A stretch of DNA of 64,000 nucleotides from NCBI RefSeq assembly GCF_021606685.1, contig NZ_WKCB01000020.1, positions 1 through 64,000 of the forward strand. The letters are read 5' to 3'. The position numbers were made by a program, and so were the translations under genes. Numbering within the stretch: position 1 is the first letter of the stretch; each line of letters opens with the position of its first letter. The notes below the pieces were generated by a model that saw nothing but the letters and a program-made list of their open reading frames with translations, searched no databases and had not been told where the DNA came from. This document shows, in pieces, positions 18,131 through 53,090 of the stretch. The DNA comes from Pseudomonas syringae (GTDB taxonomy: Bacteria > Pseudomonadota > Gammaproteobacteria > Pseudomonadales > Pseudomonadaceae).

Positions 18131-18493
18131 TCAGTCCAGGCCGAGTTCCACCACGCCTGCGTTCAGCCGCACCGGCCATACCCGCAACCGCTGGGTTGGC
18201 GCCTCCAGGCACTGGCCATCCTGCAAGCGGTAATGCTGCTTGTAGATCGGCGCGGCCACCACCAGGTCGCCCTTGATACTGCCCACCAAACCACGGCCGA
18301 TCACATTCGCGCCGGATTCCGGGTCATGGTTGTCGATAGCGAACAGCGTCTGCTCCTGCGCACCGGGAAGGTAGAACAGCGCCACTTGCGCGCCGTCCAG
18401 CCACACCACCACCCCGGAGTTGCTTACCAGGTCTTGCTCGCTGCACACGCCTTTCCAACGGGCGAGGTTGGGTTGAAGGTTGGGCTGGCTCAT
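18131..18493 (-). CDS. nirD: Nitrite reductase (NADH) small subunit
   Basis: 120 aa, normal NirD length, Rieske-like beta fold. The usual Rieske cysteine and histidine ligands are absent, as in other NirD proteins (sequence reads DNHDPESGANVIGRGLVG). It starts at the ATG at 18493, which shares one base with the nirB stop, so translation is coupled. It should be the accessory subunit of cytoplasmic assimilatory nitrite reductase. Confidence 0.93.
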   Translation of the reverse strand: MSQPNLQPNLARWKGVCSEQDLVSNSGVVVWLDGAQVALFYLPGAQEQTLFAIDNHDPESGANVIGRGLVGSIKGDLVVAAPIYKQHYRLQDGQCLEAPTQRLRVWPVRLNAGVVELGLD

Positions 18494-21036
18494 CAGGCAA
18501 TCTCCTCGATCACGGGAATCAGGTTGAGTTCGGCGGCCATGATCGGCCGACGCTGGCCGCGCTCCTGGACAAAGTGGATATCCGGGTCCGGGCGTTTGTC
18601 ATTGACGAAGGTGCGGAAGCGCTTGAGTTTTTCCGGGTCCTTGAGGGCGTTGGCCCACTCGCATTCGTAGCGGTCCACCACCAGTTGCATCTGCGCTTCG
18701 AGTTCGGCGCCCAGGCCGAGGCTGTCGTGCAGGATCACGTCCTTGAGGAAATCCAGACCGCCCTCCAGGCTTTCACGCCAGACCGAGGTGCGTTGCAGTT
18801 TGTCGGCGGTGCGGATGTAGAACATCAGGAAGCGGTCGATGTACTGGATCAGCGTGGCGTCATCCAGGTCGGTGGCGAACAGCTCCGCATGGCGAGGGCG
18901 CATGCCGCCGTTGCCGGCGATGTAGAGGTTCCAGCCCTTCTCGGTGGCGATCACGCCGACGTCCTTGCTTTGCGCTTCGGCGCACTCACGGGTGCAGCCG
19001 GACACCGCAAACTTGAGCTTGTGCGGCGAGCGCAGGCCCTTGTAGCGGTCCTCGATCAACAGCGCCATTTTCACGCTGTCCTGCACGCCGTAGCGGCACC
19101 AGGTGCTGCCCACGCAGGACTTCACCGTGCGCGTCGACTTGCCGTAGGCGTGCCCGGTTTCGAAGCCGGCGGCGATCAGCTCGGCCCAGATATCCGGCAG
19201 CTCGTGCAGCTGCGCGCCAAACAGGTCGATGCGCTGGCCGCCGGTGATCTTGGTATAGAGGTCGTATTTCTTCGCCACTTCGCCGATCACAATCAGCTTG
19301 TCGGCGGTGATCTCCCCACCCGGAATGCGCGGTACCACCGAGTAGGTGCCGTTCTTTTGCATATTGGCCATGAACGTATCGTTGGTGTCCTGCAGCGGCA
19401 CCAGGGAGGCGTCCATGATCGGCTGGTTCCAGCACGAGGCCAGGATCGAACCCACTGCCGGCTTGCACACATCGCAACCGGTGTGGCCACGGCCGTGCTT
19501 GGCCAACAGTTCTTCGAAGGTGATCACCCCTTCCACGCGCACCAAGGCATACAGCTCCTGGCGGGTGTAGGCAAAGTGTTCGCACAGGCTCTTGTCGACG
19601 CTGACGCCACGCGCGATCAGCTCATGCTCGAATACCTGCTTGAGCAACCCGGCGCAACCGCCGCAGCCGGTGCAGGCCTTGGTCTGGGATTTGAGCAGGC
19701 CGAGGTCGCTGCAACCCCCGTCGATGGCCGAGCAGATCGCGCCTTTGGTCACGTTATGGCACGAGCACACGGTGGCCGACTCGGGCAGCGCGCCTGGGCC
19801 CAGGGTCGGGGCGCCGGCGGACGACGGCAGGATCAGGCTCGCCGGTTCCGCCGGCAGCGTGATGCTGTTTTGCATGTATTGCAGCAAGGTGTCGTAGTAG
19901 CTGTTGTCGCCGACCAGCACCGCGCCGATCACGTGCTTGCCACTCGCGTCCACCACTAGGCGCCGATAGCTGGCGCTGGCCTCGTCGATGAACTGGTAGC
20001 TGCGCGCGCCAGGCGTGTGGGCGTGGGCATCGCCGATGGAGCCCACGTCCACGCCCAGCAGCTTGAGCTTGGTCGACATGTCGGCGCCGATAAAGGGCTC
20101 GGCGGCCTGTTCGCACAACAGCGCCGCCACGCCCCGGGCCATCTGGTAACCGGGCGCGACCAGGCCGAACAGGCTGCCATTCCACGACGCGCACTCGCCA
20201 ATCGCGTAGATATGCGGGTCGCAGCTCAAGCATTCATCGTTGATCACCACCCCGCCACGCGGGCCGATCTCCAGGCCGGCCTGGCGCGCCAGGGCATCCT
20301 GCGCGCGGATACCGGCGGAGAACACGATCAGGTCGGTTTCAAGGAATTCGTCATTGGCAAAGTTCATCCGATAGCGGTAGTGCTCGCCCGCACTGATCGA
20401 CTGGGTGGCACGCGACAAATGCACGCCGACCCCCAGTCGCTCGATCTGCGCCTTGAGCGCCAGCCCTCCGAAATCATCCAACTGCACCGGCATCAGGCGC
20501 GGTGCAAATTCCACCACATGCGCTTCCAGGCCGAGGCTTTTCAGCGCGTTAGCCGCTTCCAGGCCCAGCAGGCCGCCACCGACGACCACGCCACGGCGGG
20601 CATTGGCGGCCGCCGCGCGGATCGCATCAAGGTCTTGCAAGGTGCGATACACCAACCGCGAATCGCCCGCGGCGCCTTCGATCGGTGGCACGAAAGGGTA
20701 AGACCCCGTGGCCAGTACCAGCGTGTCATACGCCACGCAGCCATTGGCGGTAATCACCTCACGGCGTGCGCGGTCGATCTCCAGCACCGGTACGCCCAGG
20801 TGCAAGGTCACGCCTGGCGTCTGGTACAACGCCGCCTCCGACAACGCCAGCGACTCGGCATCGCGGCCGGTGAAGTACTCGGACAGATGCACGCGGTCAT
20901 AGGCACGCATCGGTTCTTCGCTGAACACATGCAGTTGGTAATGCTGCAGCGCGCCGCGCTCGATCAGTTGCTCTACGCAATGGTGACCGACCATGCCATT
21001 GCCAACGACGATCAGGGTTTTCATCTGTGTATTCAT
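18493..21036 (-). CDS. nirB: Nitrite reductase (NADH) large subunit
   Basis: 847 aa from the ATG at 21036; an upstream GTG (21045) and a downstream ATG (21024) are also in frame. Domain order is FAD/NAD(P)-binding reductase (VVGNGMVGHHC at the start, GVVVGGGLLGLEAAN near 150), BFD-like [2Fe-2S] region (CSCHNVTKGAI and CTGCGGC), then the nitrite/sulfite reductase ferredoxin-like and siroheme-[4Fe-4S] domain (TRTVKSCVGSTWCRYG and KFAVSGCTRECAEA). It reduces nitrite to ammonium with NADH in the cytoplasm. The gene is divergent from the nitrate reductase, and its leader contains a sigma-54-type promoter and an attenuator. Confidence 0.95.
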   Translation of the reverse strand: MNTQMKTLIVVGNGMVGHHCVEQLIERGALQHYQLHVFSEEPMRAYDRVHLSEYFTGRDAESLALSEAALYQTPGVTLHLGVPVLEIDRARREVITANGCVAYDTLVLATGSYPFVPPIEGAAGDSRLVYRTLQDLDAIRAAAANARRGVVVGGGLLGLEAANALKSLGLEAHVVEFAPRLMPVQLDDFGGLALKAQIERLGVGVHLSRATQSISAGEHYRYRMNFANDEFLETDLIVFSAGIRAQDALARQAGLEIGPRGGVVINDECLSCDPHIYAIGECASWNGSLFGLVAPGYQMARGVAALLCEQAAEPFIGADMSTKLKLLGVDVGSIGDAHAHTPGARSYQFIDEASASYRRLVVDASGKHVIGAVLVGDNSYYDTLLQYMQNSITLPAEPASLILPSSAGAPTLGPGALPESATVCSCHNVTKGAICSAIDGGCSDLGLLKSQTKACTGCGGCAGLLKQVFEHELIARGVSVDKSLCEHFAYTRQELYALVRVEGVITFEELLAKHGRGHTGCDVCKPAVGSILASCWNQPIMDASLVPLQDTNDTFMANMQKNGTYSVVPRIPGGEITADKLIVIGEVAKKYDLYTKITGGQRIDLFGAQLHELPDIWAELIAAGFETGHAYGKSTRTVKSCVGSTWCRYGVQDSVKMALLIEDRYKGLRSPHKLKFAVSGCTRECAEAQSKDVGVIATEKGWNLYIAGNGGMRPRHAELFATDLDDATLIQYIDRFLMFYIRTADKLQRTSVWRESLEGGLDFLKDVILHDSLGLGAELEAQMQLVVDRYECEWANALKDPEKLKRFRTFVNDKRPDPDIHFVQERGQRRPIMAAELNLIPVIEEIA

Positions 21037-21075
21037 ATCAATCACCCGACAATGCTTATCACGGTTTTGAAAAGC

Positions 21076-21111
21076 AAAAAAAAACGCCTGAAACCTTGCG
21101 GTTCCAGGCGT
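21076..21111 (-). terminator. Attenuator terminator in the nirBD leader
   Basis: On the minus strand ACGCCTG-G-AACC, loop GCAA, GGTT-T-CAGGCGT, followed by a run of T. It is a strong intrinsic terminator between promoter and nirB start, so it can only serve to stop leader transcription. Its 5' arm overlaps the hexaloop hairpin immediately upstream. Confidence 0.85.
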
Positions 21112-21120
21112 CTTTGCCTG
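21105..21120 (-). promoter_or_regulatory. ANTAR-type antiterminator hairpin (P2) in the nirBD leader
   Basis: Minus strand CAGGC-AAAGAC-GCCTG: five base pairs closing a six-base loop with A at position 1 and G at position 4, the known recognition pattern of ANTAR proteins such as NasR and NasT. The 3' arm GCCTG is also part of the terminator's 5' arm, so the two folds exclude each other. A possible P1 hairpin lies upstream at 21141-21154 (CGGC-GCAGTC-GCCG), with G but not A at the key loop positions. Confidence 0.75.
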
Positions 21121-21214
21121 TTCTTATTGCGGGATCGGTTCGGCGACTGCGCCGGATCTACCGCTATTGCCCCTGGTGTCGATCGTCGTTGACCGAGGTG
21201 GGTTGAAGGTAGAC

Positions 21215-21232
21215 TTGCAGGCGGCGTGCCAA
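21215..21232 (-). promoter_or_regulatory. Sigma-54 promoter for nirBD
   Basis: Minus strand TTGGCACGCCGCCTGCAA. It fits TGGCACG-N4-TTGCA with one mismatch and has the required GG-N10-GC spacing. The predicted start near 21205 gives a leader of about 170 nt that includes the hexaloop hairpin and terminator. This suggests NtrC-dependent nitrogen control; no NtrC site was assigned with confidence. Confidence 0.75.
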
Positions 21233-21331
21233 TCCGTAGGCAGCCCGTAATTGCGGGATCCAGCAGTCTCCAGCCCGCTCAACTGCGCCTCCAACTGGTG
21301 CGCCGCGCCTTATAAAAGTGCACCCCCACCT

Positions 21332-21423
21332 GTGGCGAGCGAGCTTGCTCGCGTTGGAGTGCGCAGCGTTCCCAGGATTGTGCAGCCGCTGCGCAGCCCA
21401 ACGGCAGCAAGCGCCCTCGCCAC
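21332..21423. repeat. Degenerate REP pair
   Basis: Left arm GTGGCGAGCGAGCTTGCTCG at 21332 is well preserved. The right arm ending at 21423 (GCAGCAAGCGCCCTCGCCAC) has several changes. It lies between the two divergent sigma-54 promoters of the nitrate/nitrite genes. Confidence 0.7.
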
Positions 21424-21458
21424 CTCAAGCGCGCCCATCACACAGGCCATGCCAAAGC

Positions 21459-21474
21459 TGGCGCGTGACTTGCT
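21459..21474 (+). promoter_or_regulatory. Sigma-54 promoter for the nitrate reductase gene
   Basis: TGGCGCGTGACTTGCT fits TGGCACG-N4-TTGCW with one mismatch and GG-N10-GC spacing. The predicted start near 21484 gives a leader of about 120 nt containing a hexaloop hairpin and terminator. Confidence 0.75.
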
Positions 21475-21514
21475 AGGAAGACAGCTACCAAGCAGTCAAC
21501 GCTGATTGCCCATT

Positions 21515-21532
21515 CACGACAAAGGCGCCGTG
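21515..21532 (+). promoter_or_regulatory. ANTAR-type antiterminator hairpin (P2) in the nitrate reductase leader
   Basis: CACGAC-AAAGGC-GCCGTG: a six-position stem with one A-C mismatch and a hexaloop AAAGGC that has A1 and G4. The nirBD leader loop is AAAGAC, so the first four bases and the last are shared. The 3' arm overlaps the 5' arm of the terminator that follows. The upstream P1 hairpin is not clear (a GC-rich stem around AGTC near 21491-21503 is possible). Confidence 0.68.
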
Positions 21533-21572
21533 CAGCCCCCGTTTTCAACGGAGGGGTGCAAGGCGCTTTTTT
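21525..21572 (+). terminator. Attenuator terminator in the nitrate reductase leader
   Basis: A long hairpin of stacked segments GCGCC/GGCGC, TGCA/TGCA, CCCC/GGGG and CGTT/AACG around a TTC loop, followed by six Ts at 21567-21572. It lies 31 bp before the start codon, so it acts within the leader. Confidence 0.85.
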
Positions 21573-21603
21573 GTTGGCGGCAAAAAAGATTCGAGGGTTA
21601 CGG

Positions 21604-24600
21604 ATGGCAAACCAAAGCGTACGCAGTGTGTGCCCCTATTGTGGTGTGGGCTGCGGCATCGTCATGCAGGTCGAGAACAACCGCGTGGTCAAGGTGATCG
21701 GCGACAAGGCCCACCCCACCAACTTTGGCCGGCTGTGCACCAAGGGCACCACCTGCGGGCAAGCCATCGCCGAGTCCGGCCGCATGGAAAACGCCTACCT
21801 GCGGGAGAAGCGCGACCACGACCCGGTACGCATCGCCATGGACAAGGCCATCAGCGAAACCGCCACGCGCCTGCGCCACATCCTCGACCGCGATGGCCCC
21901 GACGCGCTGGCATTCTACGTGTCCGGGCAGATGTCGCTGGAAGCCCAATACCTGGTCAACAAGTTGGCCAAGGGCTTTGTGCGCACGCCTAACATCGAAT
22001 CCAACTCGCGCCTGTGCATGGCCAGTGCCGGCAGCGGCTACAAGCTCTCCCTCGGCGCCGACGGCCCGCCCGGGTCCTACGAGGACTTCGACCGCGCCGA
22101 CCTGTTCTTCGTGATCGGCGCCAATATGGCCGACTGTCACCCGATTCTGTTTCTGCGCATGATGGACCGCGTCAAGGCCGGCGCCCGGTTGATCGTGGTC
22201 GACCCACGGCGCAGCGCCACGGCTGATAAGGCCAACCTGTACCTGCCGATCAAACCGGGCACCGACCTCGCGCTGCTCAATGGGCTGCTGCACCTGCTGG
22301 TGAAAAACGGCCACACCGACCCGGCCTTCATTGCCGCATTTACCCAAGGCTGGGAGGCCATGCCGGAGTTTCTTGAAGACTACCCGCCGCACGTCGTCGC
22401 CGAGATCACCGGCCTTGCCCAAGCCGATATAGAGCAAGCCGCCGACTGGATCGGCCAGGCCGCCGAGTGGATGAGCTGCTGGACCATGGGCCTCAACCAG
22501 AGTACCCACGGCACCTGGAACACCAACGCGCTGTGCAACCTGCACCTGGCCACCGGCGCGATCTGCCGCCCCGGCAGCGGGCCGTTTTCCCTGACCGGCC
22601 AGCCCAATGCCATGGGCGGTCGCGAGATGGGCTACATGGGCCCTGGCCTGCCGGGCCAACGCTCGGTACTGGTCGAGGCCGACCGGGCGTTTATCGAAGA
22701 CCTCTGGCACCTCCCCGAGGGCAGCCTGCCGCGCCAGGCCGGCGGCGGCACCGTGGCGATGTTCGAGCAGATGGCCGCCGGGCAGATCAAGGCATGCTGG
22801 ATCATCTGCACCAACCCGGTGGCCAGCGTGCCCAATCGCCAGACCGTACTCGACGGCCTGCAAACCGCCGAGTTGGTGATCACCCAGGACGCCTTCCTCG
22901 ACACCGAAACCAACCGCTACGCCGATATTCTCCTGCCCGGCGCGCTGTGGGCCGAGGCCGAAGGGGTGATGATCAACTCCGAACGCAACCTGACCCTGAT
23001 GCAAAAGGCCGTGCAAGCGCCCGGCGACACCCTGCCTGACTGGCAGATCATCGCCAGGGTCGCCTGCGAAATGGGCTTTGCCGAGGCGTTCACCTATGCC
23101 TGCGCCGCCGAGGTGTTTGAGGAGATCAAACGCGCCTGGAATCCCAAGACCGGCTACGACATGCGGGGCGCCAGCTACGCGCGGCTGCGTGAACAACCAC
23201 TGCAATGGCCCTGCGCATCCAGCACGGCGGCAGACCGCAACCCGATTCGCTACCGCACCGAGGGCACGCTCAGGTTCGCCACCGAAAGCGGCAAAGGCCA
23301 GTTCTTCGCGCGCCCGCACATGCCGCCGGCAGAGCTGCCCGACGACGCCTTCCCCTTCGTGCTCAACACCGGCCGCTTGCAGCACCAGTGGCACACGCTG
23401 ACCAAGACCGGCAAGGTCGCCACCCTGAACAAACTCAACCCCGGCCCCTTTGTGGAGATCCATCCCGAGGATGCCGTGCGCCTGGGCATCAAGGCCAAAG
23501 ACTCGGTGGAAGTGCGCTCCCAGCGTGGCCGCGCGGTGCTGCCTGCCGTGATCACCGACCGGGTGCGGCCGGGCGACTGCTTTGCCCCCTTCCACTGGAA
23601 CGATGTGTTCGGCGAACACCTGGCGATCAACGCCGTGACCAACGATGCCGTCGACCCGATTTCGCTGCAGCCCGAGTTCAAGTTCTGCGCCGTTGCCCTG
23701 GCGCGGGTCGAGCTGATCGACCACGCGTTCCTTTCCCCTTCCACAGAGGAGCCTGCCATGTCGCGCCTCGACGCCTTCGCCGAGATCACCGGCATCCGTA
23801 ACCTGCCGACGCCGCACTTGAGCGACAGTGAACGCACCTACCTCGCGGGCTTCCTCAGCGGCCTGCAATCGACTGCCGGGCGCCAGGCGGGCGGCGTACC
23901 GGTGATGCCGGCGAACGCGCCGCTGGCCAGGGAATCGCGGTTGTGGCTGGACGGTTTGCTCGGCGGGTTGTTCAGCCGCGCAGAAACCACGCCCGTAGCT
24001 GCGCAAATGGCCGCGCCGCCCTCCCCGACAGTCACCCTGTTATGGGCCTCGCAGACCGGTAACGCCGAAACCCTTGCCGAGCGGTTCGCCCAGCGCCTGC
24101 GCGACGCCGGTATCAGCGTAGAGCTAAGCGCCATGGCCGACTTTGCGCCGAGCAAATTGGCGAGCACCCAGAACCTGGCGCTGATCAGCAGCACCTTTGG
24201 CGACGGCGACCCGCCGGACAACGGCGAAAGTTTCTGGCACAGCCTCAGCAGCGCCGAGACGCGCCTGGAATCACTGCGCTTCGCCGTGCTGGCGCTGGGC
24301 GATCCGAATTACGACCAGTTCTGCCACCATGGCAAGCAGCTCGACCAGCGCCTGCTGGAACTGGGCGCCACCCGCCTGCTGGAACGCGTCGACTGCGACA
24401 CCGAATTCGAAGAACGCGCCGACGCCTGGCTGGCAAAGTTTCAACAGACGCTGAACCCGACAAAGCCCGTCACCCTCGCCACCCCCGCCGGCAAAACCAA
24501 GCTGCATGGCTCACGGCTGCTGCTCAATCGGCACCTGAACCCGCACAGCGCGCACAAGGAAACCCGCCAGTTTGCCCTCGACCTGGCCGACTCCGGCCTG

Positions 24601-25590
24601 ACCTATGAAGCCGGCGATGCCCTCGGCGTTCGGCCGCGTAACTGCCCCGAACTGGTGAGCGAACTGCTTGACCTGACCCGCCTGGGCGCCAGCACCTCGG
24701 TGAATATCGACACCTTTGGTGATGTGCCGCTGCAACAGGCACTCACCCAGCACTTCGAAATCGCCCGTCCCAGCAGCGAAACGCTCGCCTTTATCGCCGA
24801 GCGCAGCGCCAACGCTGGGCTTGAGCAACTGCTGAGGCCCGAGCACAAGGCCGAACTCAAAGACTGGCTATGGGGCCGGCAACTGGTGGATGTGCTGCAG
24901 GAATACCCCATCGAGTGCTCGGCGGACGAGCTGCTCGGCACCCTCAAGCGCCTGCAACCGCGCCTGTACTCGATTGCCTCCAGCGCCAAGGCCCATCCGC
25001 AGGAAGTGCACCTGACCGTGGCGGCCGTGCGGTATGGCAAGCGCAAGGGCGTGTCCTCGACCTTCCTGGCCGACCGTGTCGGCGACGGCGAGGTGCCGGT
25101 GTTCGTGCAGCCATCCAAACACTTTCGTACGCCCACCGACGGTAACGTGCCGATGATCATGATCGGCCCCGGCACGGGGGTGGCGCCCTTTCGGGCTTTT
25201 TTGCAAGAGCGCCGGGCCCAGGGGCATCAGGGCAGCAACTGGTTGTTTTTTGGCGAGCAACACGCCGCCAGCGACTTCTATTACCAGGACGAACTGCAAG
25301 GCATGCAACGCGACGGGTTGCTCACCCACCTGAGCCTGGCGTTTTCGCGCGACCAGGCCCAGAAGATCTACGTGCAGGACCGCCTGCGCGAACACGGCGC
25401 CGAGCTGTGGCGCTGGCTGCAGGACGGCGCCAAGCTGTACATCTGCGGGGATGCCAGCCAGATGGCCAAAGACGTCGACCTGGCCTTGCGCGAAGTGGCG
25501 CACACCCATGGCGGACTGGACGTTGAGGGGGCCGTGGACTACTGGCGCCAACTGAGCGAGCAAAAGCGTTATCTGCGTGATGTGTACTGA
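21604..25590 (+). CDS. Assimilatory nitrate reductase fused to a CysJ-like flavoprotein reductase
   Basis: 1328 aa. The N-terminal part is a molybdopterin bis-MGD nitrate reductase (NasA/NasC type): [4Fe-4S] cysteines 10, 13, 17 and 45, probable Mo ligand Cys138 in SRLCMASAG, and an MGD-binding domain near 590-710 (FVLNTGRLQHQWHT). From about residue 809 a flavodoxin domain begins (LLWASQTGNAET). An FAD/NADPH reductase domain follows from about 960, with RLYSIASS (FAD), MIGPGTGVAPFRAFL (NADPH) and the terminal RYLRDVY seen in CysJ. One polypeptide should therefore carry electrons from NADPH to nitrate. The ATG at 21604 has a GAGGG site; the long 5' extension of the frame covers the terminator and is not coding. 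Confidence 0.93.
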   Translation: MANQSVRSVCPYCGVGCGIVMQVENNRVVKVIGDKAHPTNFGRLCTKGTTCGQAIAESGRMENAYLREKRDHDPVRIAMDKAISETATRLRHILDRDGPDALAFYVSGQMSLEAQYLVNKLAKGFVRTPNIESNSRLCMASAGSGYKLSLGADGPPGSYEDFDRADLFFVIGANMADCHPILFLRMMDRVKAGARLIVVDPRRSATADKANLYLPIKPGTDLALLNGLLHLLVKNGHTDPAFIAAFTQGWEAMPEFLEDYPPHVVAEITGLAQADIEQAADWIGQAAEWMSCWTMGLNQSTHGTWNTNALCNLHLATGAICRPGSGPFSLTGQPNAMGGREMGYMGPGLPGQRSVLVEADRAFIEDLWHLPEGSLPRQAGGGTVAMFEQMAAGQIKACWIICTNPVASVPNRQTVLDGLQTAELVITQDAFLDTETNRYADILLPGALWAEAEGVMINSERNLTLMQKAVQAPGDTLPDWQIIARVACEMGFAEAFTYACAAEVFEEIKRAWNPKTGYDMRGASYARLREQPLQWPCASSTAADRNPIRYRTEGTLRFATESGKGQFFARPHMPPAELPDDAFPFVLNTGRLQHQWHTLTKTGKVATLNKLNPGPFVEIHPEDAVRLGIKAKDSVEVRSQRGRAVLPAVITDRVRPGDCFAPFHWNDVFGEHLAINAVTNDAVDPISLQPEFKFCAVALARVELIDHAFLSPSTEEPAMSRLDAFAEITGIRNLPTPHLSDSERTYLAGFLSGLQSTAGRQAGGVPVMPANAPLARESRLWLDGLLGGLFSRAETTPVAAQMAAPPSPTVTLLWASQTGNAETLAERFAQRLRDAGISVELSAMADFAPSKLASTQNLALISSTFGDGDPPDNGESFWHSLSSAETRLESLRFAVLALGDPNYDQFCHHGKQLDQRLLELGATRLLERVDCDTEFEERADAWLAKFQQTLNPTKPVTLATPAGKTKLHGSRLLLNRHLNPHSAHKETRQFALDLADSGLTYEAGDALGVRPRNCPELVSELLDLTRLGASTSVNIDTFGDVPLQQALTQHFEIARPSSETLAFIAERSANAGLEQLLRPEHKAELKDWLWGRQLVDVLQEYPIECSADELLGTLKRLQPRLYSIASSAKAHPQEVHLTVAAVRYGKRKGVSSTFLADRVGDGEVPVFVQPSKHFRTPTDGNVPMIMIGPGTGVAPFRAFLQERRAQGHQGSNWLFFGEQHAASDFYYQDELQGMQRDGLLTHLSLAFSRDQAQKIYVQDRLREHGAELWRWLQDGAKLYICGDASQMAKDVDLALREVAHTHGGLDVEGAVDYWRQLSEQKRYLRDVY

Positions 25591-25739: not shown

Positions 25740-27680
25740 ATGAAAATAAAAAATAAACTTGTTCTGGCTTTTGTCTCTGTCGCGTTTATTCCGGTGAGCC
25801 TGGTGGCCGTGATCTCTGTGATGAATACGCGGACCCAGGCGGTCGACCAGTTTATCGACGGCAGCACCCGCGAAATCCGCCAGATTGATGGCAACATTCG
25901 CCAGTTCTTCGACGGCACCCTGCAGAACGTCGATCAGATGGCCACCGATCCTGTATACACATCGATCAGCACGCTGAAGAACTACCAGCCCGCCGACGCC
26001 GCCAGCCAACCGCTGCCGGCAGAGGCGCAAAGCGTGATCGAGCGCTTCGCGCGGTTTGGCGCTACGCACCCGGCAGCGGCGATCCTGTCCATCGGCCTTG
26101 AAGACGGCACCTACGCCAAATGGCCCGATGACCCACAGCTGTCCAAGTACGACCCGCGCCAGCGGCCCTGGTACAAGGCGGCGATGGCCAGCCCGGGCAA
26201 GACCGTGCGCACCCCGGCTTACTACTATGACAAAGACGACGTAGCGCTTGTGGGCACCGCGCGGGCGTTGCTGGACAACGCCGGTAAAGCCAAGGGCGTG
26301 TTCGTGGTCAGCGTGTCACTCAAGAACCTCACCGAACTGGTCAAGAGCATCAAGCTGGGCGAAAGCGGCTACGTGATGCTGATCGAAGACGGCGTGGTGC
26401 TGGTGGACCCGCGCGACGCCGCCCACAACTTCAAACCGCTCAAGGACCTGGGCGCACCGTACGCGAAGCTGGCCGAAACCACTCAGGGCTCCACCGAGGT
26501 GGAAATCGACGGCGTGCGCTACATGGCCAATATCTGGACCTCGCCCGGCCTGGGCTGGCGCTATGTGGGGCTGATCGAGCACCGCGAAGTGATGGCCGAG
26601 GCCACCCGCATGACCTACCTGACCGCAATTATCGTGGCGGTGTTGGTGCTGATTTTCGGCTTGATCGCGGCGGCGTTTTCCAAGGTCATCGTCAAGCCTA
26701 TCGGCCAGGTCAGCACCGGCTTGCAGTCCATTGCCCAGGGCGAAGGCGATCTGCGTCACGAACTGCAGGTGCAGGGCAAGGATGAAACCGCCGAACTGGC
26801 CGGCTGGTTCAACAAGTTCCTCGCGGCGATCCGCCAACTGATCCAGCATATCGGCGCCGCCTCGACCAACTTGCAGAACGCCTCGAAGGTCAACAGCGAA
26901 GTGGCGCACAACATGAACGAGGCCGCCGGGCGTCAGCGCGAGGCGGTGGAGTTGGTGTCCACTGCCTTCAACGAGATGGTCGCCACTGCCAACGAAGTTG
27001 CACGCTCCTGCAGCGGCGCGGCCGAATCCGCCGAGAACGGCCATCGTCGCGTGGCCGAGGGCAAGCAACAGATCGAAGTGACCACCGATAACGTCAATCG
27101 CCTGGGCCGCCGTTTGAGTGAATCGTCCCAGGCCATGGTCGAGCTGGAAGCCGGTAGCCGCAGCATCAACCAGATCCTTGGCACCATCCGCGCGATTGCC
27201 GAACAAACCAACCTGCTGGCCCTTAACGCGGCTATCGAGGCCGCCCGCGCGGGCGACCAGGGCCGTGGTTTTGCGGTGGTCGCCGACGAGGTACGCGCGC
27301 TGGCCAAGCGCACTTCTGACTCCACCGGCGAGATCGAACAACTGCTCGGCACCCTGGGCAGCAAGACCGAGGAAGTCACGCAGAAAATGAGCAGCTGCCT
27401 GGACCTGTCACGGGCCAGTGTGTCGTCCATCGAAAGCGCACGGGACAGCTTTGAAGGCATCCAGTTGTCGGTCAACGAGATCCGCGACCAGAACCTGCAG
27501 ATCTCCGCCGCCGCCGAGGAACAACACAGCGTGGCCGAAGAGATCAACCGGCACATCCAGCAGATCTACGACGAAGCACGCCTGGTGGAGAGCCTGGCCA
27601 ACTCGGCACAGGACGACTCGGGAAGGCTGTCGAATTTGTCGGATGAGTTGAATGGCTTGGTAGGACGCTTCAAGTCGTGA
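25740..27680 (+). CDS. Methyl-accepting chemotaxis protein with periplasmic dCache domain
   Basis: 646 aa from the ATG at 25740 ([11 protein letters not shown]); an ATG at 25728 is also in frame. TM1 is at about 7-29. A double-Cache ligand domain follows to about 280 ([15 protein letters not shown] and [12 protein letters not shown] are Cache motifs). TM2 is at about 290-315, then HAMP and the signalling hairpin with [18 protein letters not shown]. The usual aspartate after RPWY of the amino-acid-binding dCache motif is not present, so the ligand is open. The gene stands alone after the nitrate reductase gene; a link to nitrogen sources is only positional. Confidence 0.88.
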
Positions 27681-27686
27681 TCTAGG

Positions 27687-28269
27687 GTACTGCTGGGATT
27701 TAGGCTTCAACTGTTGATGCAGTTTCGGCCCTGACCCGAATCACTGTGGGAGCTGTCGAGCCCTAGCGAGGCTGCGAAGGCGGCGGCACTGCCAGTATTT
27801 TTGTCGCCTGACACACCGCTTTCGCAGCCTCGCTAAAGCTCGACAGCTCCCACAGGGAATCTGCGGTGCTGCTGGGATTCAGGCTGTACCTGCTGATGCA
27901 GTTTCGGCCATCACCCGAATCAACTGTGGGAGCTGTCGAGCCCCGGCGAGGCTGCGAAGGCGGCGGCACTGCCGGTATTTTTGTCGCCTGACACACCGCT
28001 TTCGCAGCCTCGCTAAAGCTCGACAGCTCCCACAGGGGATCAGCGGTGCTGGTGGGATTCAGGCTGTACCTGCTGATGCAATTTCGGCCCTGACCCGGAT
28101 CAACTGTGGGAGCTGTCGAGCCCAGGCGAGGCTGCGAAGGCGGCGGCACTGCCGATATTTTTATCGCCTGACACACCGCTTTCGCAGCCTCGCTAAAGCT
28201 CGACAGCTCCCACAGGGGATCTGCGGTGCTGGTGGGATTTAGGCAGTGCCTGCTGATGCAATTTCGGCA
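27687..28269. repeat. 180-bp tandem array of REP-like palindromes (about 3.2 copies)
   Basis: Three full units start near 27687, 27866 and 28046, with a partial fourth ending near 28269; the REP left arms are exactly 180 bp apart (27746, 27926, 28106). Each unit is a large inverted repeat with outer arms GTGGGAGCTGTCGAGC and GCTCGACAGCTCCCAC and inner arms GCGAGGCTGCGAAGG and CTTTCGCAGCCTCGC, plus a unique A+T-richer linker. It fills the gap between the chemoreceptor and the next genes; 28270-28432 shows nothing but a likely promoter. Confidence 0.88.
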
Positions 28270-52519: not shown

Positions 52520-52532
52520 TGGTGTTCTGAAT

Positions 52533-53078
52533 GTGGGAGCGGGCTTGCTCGCGAATGCGCTGGGTCAGCTGGCATTTTCGTCAACTGATCCGCCGCATTC
52601 GCGAGCAAGCCCGCTCCCACAGGGTTGACCGCGTGCGGCAAGTACACGTTTGGGGCGTGAGCAAGGTCACGATCAAAAGATCGCTGACTTCGTCAGCGGT
52701 GAGGATGTAAGAGCCAGGTCAAAAGCAGACTGGTGTGCCCCTGATGGATGGAGATCCAAATGTGGGAGCGGGCTTGCTCGCGAATGCGGTGGGTCAGCTA
52801 GCATTTTCGTCAACTGATCCGCCCCATTCGCGAGCAAGCCCGCTCCCACAGGGTTGACCGCGTGCGGCAAATACACGTTTGGGGCGTGAGCAAGGTCACG
52901 ATCAAAAGATCGCTGACTTCGTCAGCGGTGAGGATGTAAGGGCCAGATCAACAGCAGGTTGGTGTGCCCCTGATGGATGGAGATCCAAATGTGGGAGCGG
53001 GCTTGCTCGCGAATGCGGTGGGTCAGCTAGCATTTTCATCAACTGACATACCGCATTCGCGAGCAAGCCCGCTCCCAC
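52533..53078. repeat. 229-bp tandem array with REP pairs (2.4 copies)
   Basis: REP left arms GTGGGAGCGGGCTTGCTCGC begin at 52533, 52762 and 52991, exactly 229 bp apart. Each REP pair is followed by an identical linker containing a 15-base palindrome-like stretch (ATCGCTGACTTCGTCAGCG). The third unit ends after its REP pair at 53078. It fills the gap between the hydrolase gene and ampR. Confidence 0.88.
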
Positions 53079-53090
53079 AGGGGAACGTCG

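Follow-up and report, generated by a model that had tools for sequence, protein, structure and literature searches.

The window analysed here, 64,000 nucleotides of a Pseudomonas syringae contig (NZ_WKCB01000020.1), carries nirB and nasA on opposite strands, and the region between them raises the question of what decides whether nirBD is transcribed. An initial annotation had proposed a gate ahead of nirB, made of a sigma-54 site (GG-N10-GC) for initiation under nitrogen limitation, and an ANTAR-type hexaloop hairpin overlapping a terminator for read-through in nitrate. These parts are indeed present on the minus strand (Table 1): the promoter site, the AAAGAC hairpin with A1 and G4, and a terminator whose stem begins in the loop of that hairpin and uses its 3′ arm. 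However, while the AAAGAC hairpin (P2) is real, it is only half of an ANTAR site. A first hexaloop hairpin, P1, with the loop AACGAC, had been overlooked, an omission of consequence, since recognition by ANTAR proteins involves a pair of hexaloop hairpins (PMC3369931, PMC3369936, in the portions of these papers available). Also unmentioned were a hairpin in the linker between P1 and P2 (21164-21129) and a plus-strand counterpart before nasA (21459-21572). The window therefore holds what is expected of an ANTAR target, namely two A1/G4 hexaloop hairpins, the second of which overlaps and excludes an intrinsic terminator. As far as its sequence can tell, the segment is very probably a leader that controls nirBD by transcription attenuation, equivalent to NalA of P. 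aeruginosa and P. putida, and through it NasT and nitrogen supply would jointly gate the operon.

Table 1. Features of the nirB and nasA leaders and the genes that follow them, in window coordinates.
Feature	Position	Strand	Basis
nirD, downstream of nirB	18131-18493	-	named by position only
nirB, nitrite reductase large subunit, ATG at 21036	18493..21036	-	ORF; Pfam NIR_SIR, NIR_SIR_ferr, Fer2_BFD, Pyr_redox_2
Intrinsic terminator of nirB leader, 16 pairs (21115-21080), T run 21084-21076	21076..21115	-	5′ arm shares bases with the loop and 3′ arm of P2
P2, second hexaloop hairpin CAGGC-AAAGAC-GCCTG, A1 and G4, antiterminator	21105..21120	-	sequence, folding
Extra hairpin within the 58-nt P1-P2 linker (21178-21121)	21129..21164	-	folding, conservation
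P1, first hexaloop hairpin TCGGTC-AACGAC-GATCGA, A1 and G4	21179..21196	-	folding, conservation
Predicted start of nirB transcription, 12 nt downstream of the -12 C	21205	-	inferred from promoter geometry
nirB sigma-54 (-24/-12) promoter TTGGCACGCCGCCTGCAA	21215..21232	-	1 mismatch to TGGCACGNNNNTTGCW; conserved across the 81 nirB loci
Candidate upstream activator element GCACCAGTTGGAGGCG	21286..21301	-	possible NtrC-type site
nasA sigma-54 promoter	21459..21474	+	1 mismatch
RF03032 (narK RNA) match: promoter, P1 and P2 of nasA leader	21460..21531	+	53.0 bits (gathering 43.2)
nasA P1 hexaloop hairpin GCAGTC-AACGCT-GATTGC	21492..21509	+	script call, sequence
nasA P2 ACGAC-AAAGGC-GCCGT, one A.C stem mismatch	21516..21531	+	sequence
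nasA terminator and T run	21521..21572	+	fold, sequence
nasA-type assimilatory nitrate reductase	21604..25590	+	ORF; Pfam molybdopterin and flavodoxin/FAD/NAD reductase domains

Elsewhere, the window contains tandem arrays with units of 180 bp (3.3 copies, 27679-28268), 229 bp (2.4 copies, 52530-53082) and 234 bp (1.8 copies, 11-432). Thirteen 15-mers of the GGGAGCGGGCTTGCT type occur in the window where 0.3 are expected, and the array at 52530 holds pairs of them in inverted orientation, which we take to be REP-like.

The full nirB leader folds into the terminator (z = -5.1, none of 200 shuffles as stable). When the leader is cut after P2, it folds into both hexaloop hairpins instead (z = -2.9, 3/200 shuffles as stable); P2 and the terminator are thus mutually exclusive, both by their shared bases and by folding. 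The main evidence for this anatomy is conservation. In a comparison set made up of the window and the best 80 loci of 195 relatives, all Pseudomonas, the promoter, P1, P2 and the terminator were found together in 81/81 nirB leaders. Both hexaloops carried A1 and G4 in every leader; the extraction patterns demanded these bases, and no locus failed. Within the alignment of these leaders (A2), 99.1% of cells in P1 were paired and two of its six pairs had changed on both sides. The equivalent figures for the terminator were 99.9% and 2/16 pairs. P2 was 100% paired and invariant, and because it never varies the nirB leaders give no covariation evidence for it. Over the whole of A2 the excess of covariation was small (score 0.107 vs 0.090 in shuffles).

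The P1-P2 linker of the window, at 58 nt, is far from the short linkers of eut leaders (5-12 nt). We take this as variation rather than exclusion, since the published ANTAR search model, as described in the text available, allowed a variable linker. Linkers of 46-71 nt were found throughout the 81 nirB leaders, bridged by the additional hairpin, the two helices of which were paired in 85.8% and 86.6% of cells with 6/13 pairs changed on both sides. Among the 78 distinct sequences, two of its pairs are broken in 32 and 38, respectively; with helices that pair so incompletely, the hairpin is real as a position but not as a strict structure. In some other members of Pseudomonas (L175-L179, L191) the linker, by reading, is only ~20-25 nt long, and the insert is therefore lineage-specific. 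Perhaps it keeps P1 and P2 close in the nirB leaders of this clade.

Similarity to the sigma-54 consensus proves nothing on its own, as matches to TGGCACGNNNNTTGCW with up to two mismatches do not exceed expectation in the window (17 found, 19.7 expected). Only two sites in the 64 kb have a single mismatch, and these are the nirB promoter and the divergent nasA promoter. The nirB site is near-consensus, with GG at -24 and GC at -12 in the N10 spacing. Across the comparison set, a GG-N10-GC site scoring at least 10/12 was found in 80/81 nirB upstream regions, compared with 70 of 1620 dinucleotide shuffles (the loci scored 11 in 13 cases, 10 in 67 and 9 in one). An element GCACCAGTNNGARGCG, with no more than one mismatch, was present in 48/81 nirB upstream regions (e.g. 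L009, L192) and in none of 810 mononucleotide shuffles, the pattern having been drawn from the same nirB sequences in which it was counted. This element is a candidate activator site.

RF03032, the Rfam family of the narK RNA, was found at three places in the genome of the window, upstream of nasA, of nasS and of a narK-type MFS gene. The narK-type gene sits after nasT and its leader matches at 80.8 bits, while the nasS leader (L006:5274-5402, contig C92) reaches 38.1 bits, below gathering. Both of these leaders combine a sigma-54 site with a P1-like hairpin, a P2 hairpin and a terminator. All three are compact versions of the nirB layout, with a short linker between P1 and P2. Some of the hairpins are imperfect. 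P2 of nasA was not scored as a hairpin by the script and RNAfold leaves the region open; its GCCG arm recurs in the nasA leaders L139 and L140. P1 of nasS has only the two pairs beside the loop and went unscored by the script, and RNAfold draws a longer, interrupted stem. Read from their sequences, nirBD, nasA, narK and nasST are wired alike in this genome. The nirB leader itself did not match RF03032, nor did any Rfam family reach its gathering score there. Weak matches to Spot_42, STnc310, Thr_leader, ctRNA_p42d, mir-87 and mir-725, all below gathering, were rejected as terminator look-alikes.

A closer inspection of the family model bears on what it describes. The RF03032 consensus starts with GGCaCA-gcuc-UUGCU, a -24/-12 element, followed by P1 with the loop AACGGC and then by an unpaired ACGACAAAGACGUCGC, which is P2. 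In its alignment the model pairs P1 only and covers the -24/-12 promoter as if it were RNA. The narK RNA, going by this consensus, is a sigma-54 promoter plus an ANTAR leader, with the promoter modelled as RNA. Among the 60 top-scoring RF03032 loci, which match the model by construction, the script called a site of at least 10/12 in 57, P1 in 56 and P2 in 55, its misses including P2 of nasA in the window and P1 of nasS in the same genome. At L136, a distant locus, both hairpins occur but the promoter is not matched (6/12), and L128 and L131 score 9. The hairpins P1 and P2 of the 60 loci were paired in 96.4% of cells, with 6/9 pairs changed on both sides; none of 500 shuffles scored as high, and slid controls reached at most 66.9% pairing. 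Searched with five query proteins, the genes that follow the 60 loci were NarK-like in 45 cases, NasS-like in 10, NasA in three, NirB in one and none of these in one; three of the ten NasS-like proteins, at 35-56% identity, may be transporter-binding proteins.

Because these loci match a model that contains the promoter, the sigma-54 sites found in them cannot count as independent evidence. A promoter-free P1-P2 model (R1) was therefore built, from 41 of the 60 loci. Searched against the 80 nirB loci, it gave 46 matches up to E = 1, of which 29 divergent leaders with scores from 31 bits upward were kept, the window's own match and weaker ones being set aside. Each of the 29 precedes nasA and has, beginning 25-28 nt upstream, a GG-N10-GC site that scores 10/12 or better, as against 117/5800 random positions in the same loci, true sites included. 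In the genome of the window the three best R1 matches belong to its training set. Further matches there, scoring 24.5 and 22.8 bits, were rejected because they fall within open reading frames, as judged for the latter from its position in L006.

A second family, RF00625 or "sRNA P11", has a comparable layout. Its consensus reads UUGGCACA-agca-CUGCA, then cuuC-AACGau-GaagG (CAACGAUG loop), then GGAC-AAAGGC-GUCC and a terminator. With E of at most 0.01, end-to-end matches to nirB-type leaders came from 8 of the 20 sources searched, the best scoring 42.1 bits against a gathering score of 70, and two of the eight matches precede formate/nitrite transporter genes. On the nirB leader of the window it scored 17.9 bits (gathering 70), no better than unrelated families. 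RF00625 is, on its consensus, probably the same sigma-54 and ANTAR cassette, again with the promoter modelled as RNA, and we infer that P11 is the nirB leader of P. aeruginosa. The narK RNA motif was reportedly defined by Weinberg in 2017. In the literature searched, no paper was found that names RF03032 or ties the narK RNA to ANTAR proteins; the paper defining the motif was outside that search, and the link may be in print.

The genome of the window encodes the proteins that such a gate would need. NasT, with receiver and ANTAR domains (Pfam), lies on L006 with NasS (NMT1_2) adjacent, and there is a single RpoN (Sigma54_DBD, E 1.2e-69). The proposal of a sigma-54 promoter feeding an ANTAR attenuator thus fits the sequence, the 81 nirB leaders and the presence of NasT, NasS and RpoN. 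Two ANTAR proteins are encoded, NasT and an AmiR-type protein (AmiR_N and ANTAR, L002:1054-1683). The latter lies beside an AmiC-like ORF, named by reading, and this neighbourhood is presumably an amide system.

Of 149 Pseudomonas genomes sampled, 129 contained RF03032 and 127 NasT. Both were present in 126, RF03032 alone in three (G043, G068, G086), NasT alone in one (G041) and neither in 19, a strong co-occurrence (Fisher p = 6e-20, uncorrected for relatedness); two of the NasT-negative genomes were taken to be G146 and G147, being absent from the positive list. Across the phylum, 398 genomes yielded RF03032 in 21 and NasT in 117. NasT was encoded by 20 of the 21, including all 16 in which RF03032 exceeded its cut-off; counted by genus, the comparison was 8/9 vs 71/212 (p = 8e-4). 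Three of the four genomes with RF03032 and no NasT (G043, G068 and G352) have NIT-ANTAR proteins of the NasR type (L157, L158, L159), and in G352 the RF03032 leader lies directly after the NasR gene. No ANTAR match was found in the fourth, G086. RF03032 thus goes with ANTAR proteins that sense nitrate, whichever of the two builds they have.

A model of the nirB leader (R2), run on the 149 Pseudomonas genomes at E 1e-6, matched 88 of them. NasT was found in 85 of these compared with 42 of the 61 without a match (p = 6e-6); the 42 are those of 127 NasT-positive genomes in which R2 found no leader at this threshold, a point against the proposed gate. Two of the three R2-positive genomes without NasT have NasR, and the third is G018. 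Moreover, 14 extra R2 copies were found in 13 genomes, all with a sigma-54 site of at least 10/12. With downstream genes assigned by reading, these copies precede a methyl-accepting chemotaxis protein in seven of the 149 genomes (G002, G006, G044, G079, G114, G115, G141; L181, L188, L194, L199, L200, L205, L206), a formate/nitrite transporter in five (G013, G041, G042, G054, G148; L184, L186, L189, L196, L198), a CBS-domain protein in one (G002; L182 / L210:3081-3521) and a second nirB in G094. The leader of this second nirB lacks A1, as its P1 loop reads GACGTG.

The chemoreceptors have MCPsignal and 4HB_MCP_1 domains in 6/7 cases, and the seventh, cut by the end of the fetched stretch, has 4HB_MCP_1. 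Orthologues occur in 31 of the 149 genomes, that of the window included. At 30 of these 31 loci the upstream region was examined: the cassette was present at seven (74.5 to 136.5 bits) and no attenuator match was found at 23. A sigma-54-like site of at least 10/12 lies within 450 nt at 22 of these 23, and the remaining one scores 9. Loci with and without the cassette thus offer a natural test of its modularity. In the parts of the studies available, NtrC of P. stutzeri affects chemoreceptor genes and two chemotaxis genes of P. putida are raised under nitrogen limitation (PMC7801951), which would fit sigma-54 control of this receptor by analogy. The protein is a candidate nitrate-related receptor. 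It differs from McpN, the known nitrate chemoreceptor, which has a PilJ domain and the transcript of which is lowered by nitrate (PMC6381276, in the text available). An attenuated chemoreceptor was not described in the accessible portions of two of the papers found on NasT, chemotaxis and antitermination.

Taken together, these data make it likely that RF03032 and RF00625, rather than being free-standing structured RNAs, are one transferable cassette, a sigma-54 promoter with a dual-hexaloop ANTAR attenuator, read by NasT (a two-protein sensor) or NasR (a one-protein sensor) and placed also before genes outside nitrate assimilation proper, the 4HB chemoreceptor and the formate/nitrite transporter. 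If so, production of the chemoreceptor and transporter would require both a shortage of nitrogen and the presence of nitrate or nitrite, and a wider NasT regulon that includes the chemoreceptor is predicted for Pseudomonas. RF03032, so far described by gene name only, would gain a function and a corrected anatomy, and the promoter DNA within its model matters to anyone annotating RNA with such families. The nirB gate itself is already published, and the window adds a further species that has it; the parts worth passing on are the Rfam identity of the cassette and its spread to the chemoreceptor.

The gate in the window would operate as follows. When nitrogen is limiting, an NtrC-type activator would switch on the sigma-54 promoter. 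As long as nitrate and nitrite are absent, NasS would hold NasT, as is known in other bacteria, the terminator would form and the RNA would end near 21076. With nitrate present, free NasT would bind the P1 and P2 hexaloops. Since P2 takes the sequence of the terminator's 5′ arm, the terminator cannot form once P2 has formed, and nirB would be read. The same gate would stand before nasA, narK and nasST, and as the cassette also precedes nasST, NasT would control its own operon and is predicted to raise its own production in a positive feedback loop. Two published observations, in the excerpts available, are points against this scheme. In EutV-controlled leaders a linker lengthened to 14 nt reduced induction (PMC3369931), and the linker of the window is 58 nt. 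In Bradyrhizobium, a NasT hairpin is predicted for narK, yet the gene is up in a nasT mutant.

The long linker also invites the reading that the hairpin within it is itself the ANTAR site, either pairing up with P2 or forming a three-hexaloop target in which P1 is auxiliary. Its loop has A1/G4 in 39 of the 81 leaders, and in some, such as L022, it lies 8 nt from P2, much as in the linkers of compact leaders. However, in 37/81, the window included, the loop has G1 and G4 with C6 and would close to a tetraloop, and in the remaining five it is of another kind or missing (this part of the leader is missing in 4/81). P1, on the other hand, has A1/G4 in all 81, and the P. putida-like leaders with ~20-25 nt linkers (by reading) have P1 and P2 only. 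This reading is unlikely, and P1 with P2 remains the preferred target. Somewhat less credence still is given to the view that another promoter, for instance of the sigma-70 type, mainly starts the leader, with sigma-54 minor and the nitrogen input weak. In P. putida transcriptomes, as far as the available text reports, a strain labelled rpoN still induced nirB 5.2-fold on nitrogen limitation (13.4-fold in the wild type) and a nitrate transporter gene 12.4-fold (PMC7801951), which by analogy argues against sigma-54 as the only promoter of nirB. The window also contains no excess of the textbook NtrC palindrome TGCACC-N5-GGTGCA (54 matches, 63.5 expected). Set against this, no sigma-70-like promoter was found in 20900-21700, GG-N10-GC is kept in 81/81 nirB leaders and at 29/29 divergent leaders found by the promoter-free model, and a review gives sigma-54 and NtrC for nalA (PMC12830290, in the part available). 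A sigma-54 start is thus the preferred reading.

It is very improbable that AmiR, the other ANTAR protein of the genome, acts on the nirB leader in place of NasT. ANTAR targets do look alike and AmiR is encoded, but it adjoins its AmiC-like ORF, and RF03032 leaders track NasT or NasR. Hardly any weight can be given to a plain terminator between divergent genes, with hexaloops that are by-products of its sequence. P2 does belong to the terminator sequence and is invariant in nirB leaders, but P1 lies outside the terminator and covaries, both its A1 and G4 are kept in 81/81, and the NasT dependence of the orthologous leader is published (PMC12830290, as far as the accessible text goes). An attenuator read by NasT is therefore retained.

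Several known systems, compared from the portions of the papers available, resemble the nirB leader of the window. The dual-hexaloop antiterminator is common to the EutV and AmiR leaders (PMC3369931), which differ in their signals and, for the natural eut leaders, in their linkers of 5-12 nt. The nasF leader of Klebsiella, read by NasR, likewise has two A1/G4 hexaloops, a P2 overlapping the terminator, nitrate read-through and Ntr-controlled expression (PMC3369936, PMC5424462). There, however, NasR carries its own NIT sensor, whereas the sensor of the window's system is a separate NasS. In Paracoccus, NasS-NasT sensing and the binding of NasT to the nasA leader were shown (PMC3795266), and nasT is under NtrC and induced by nitrate (PMC5424462). 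In the NalA leader of nirBD a review describes an NtrC-dependent sigma-54 start and NasT read-through, citing Romeo 2012 for P. aeruginosa and Nie 2024 for P. putida, and reports that c-di-GMP reduces NasT binding to it (PMC12830290). The likeness to the window, drawn from this description, lies in the same gene, the sigma-54/NtrC start and the NasT antitermination; the window may depart from NalA in its 58 nt linker with an inserted hairpin, and shares with it the position before nirBD, with a sigma-54 promoter and a terminator.
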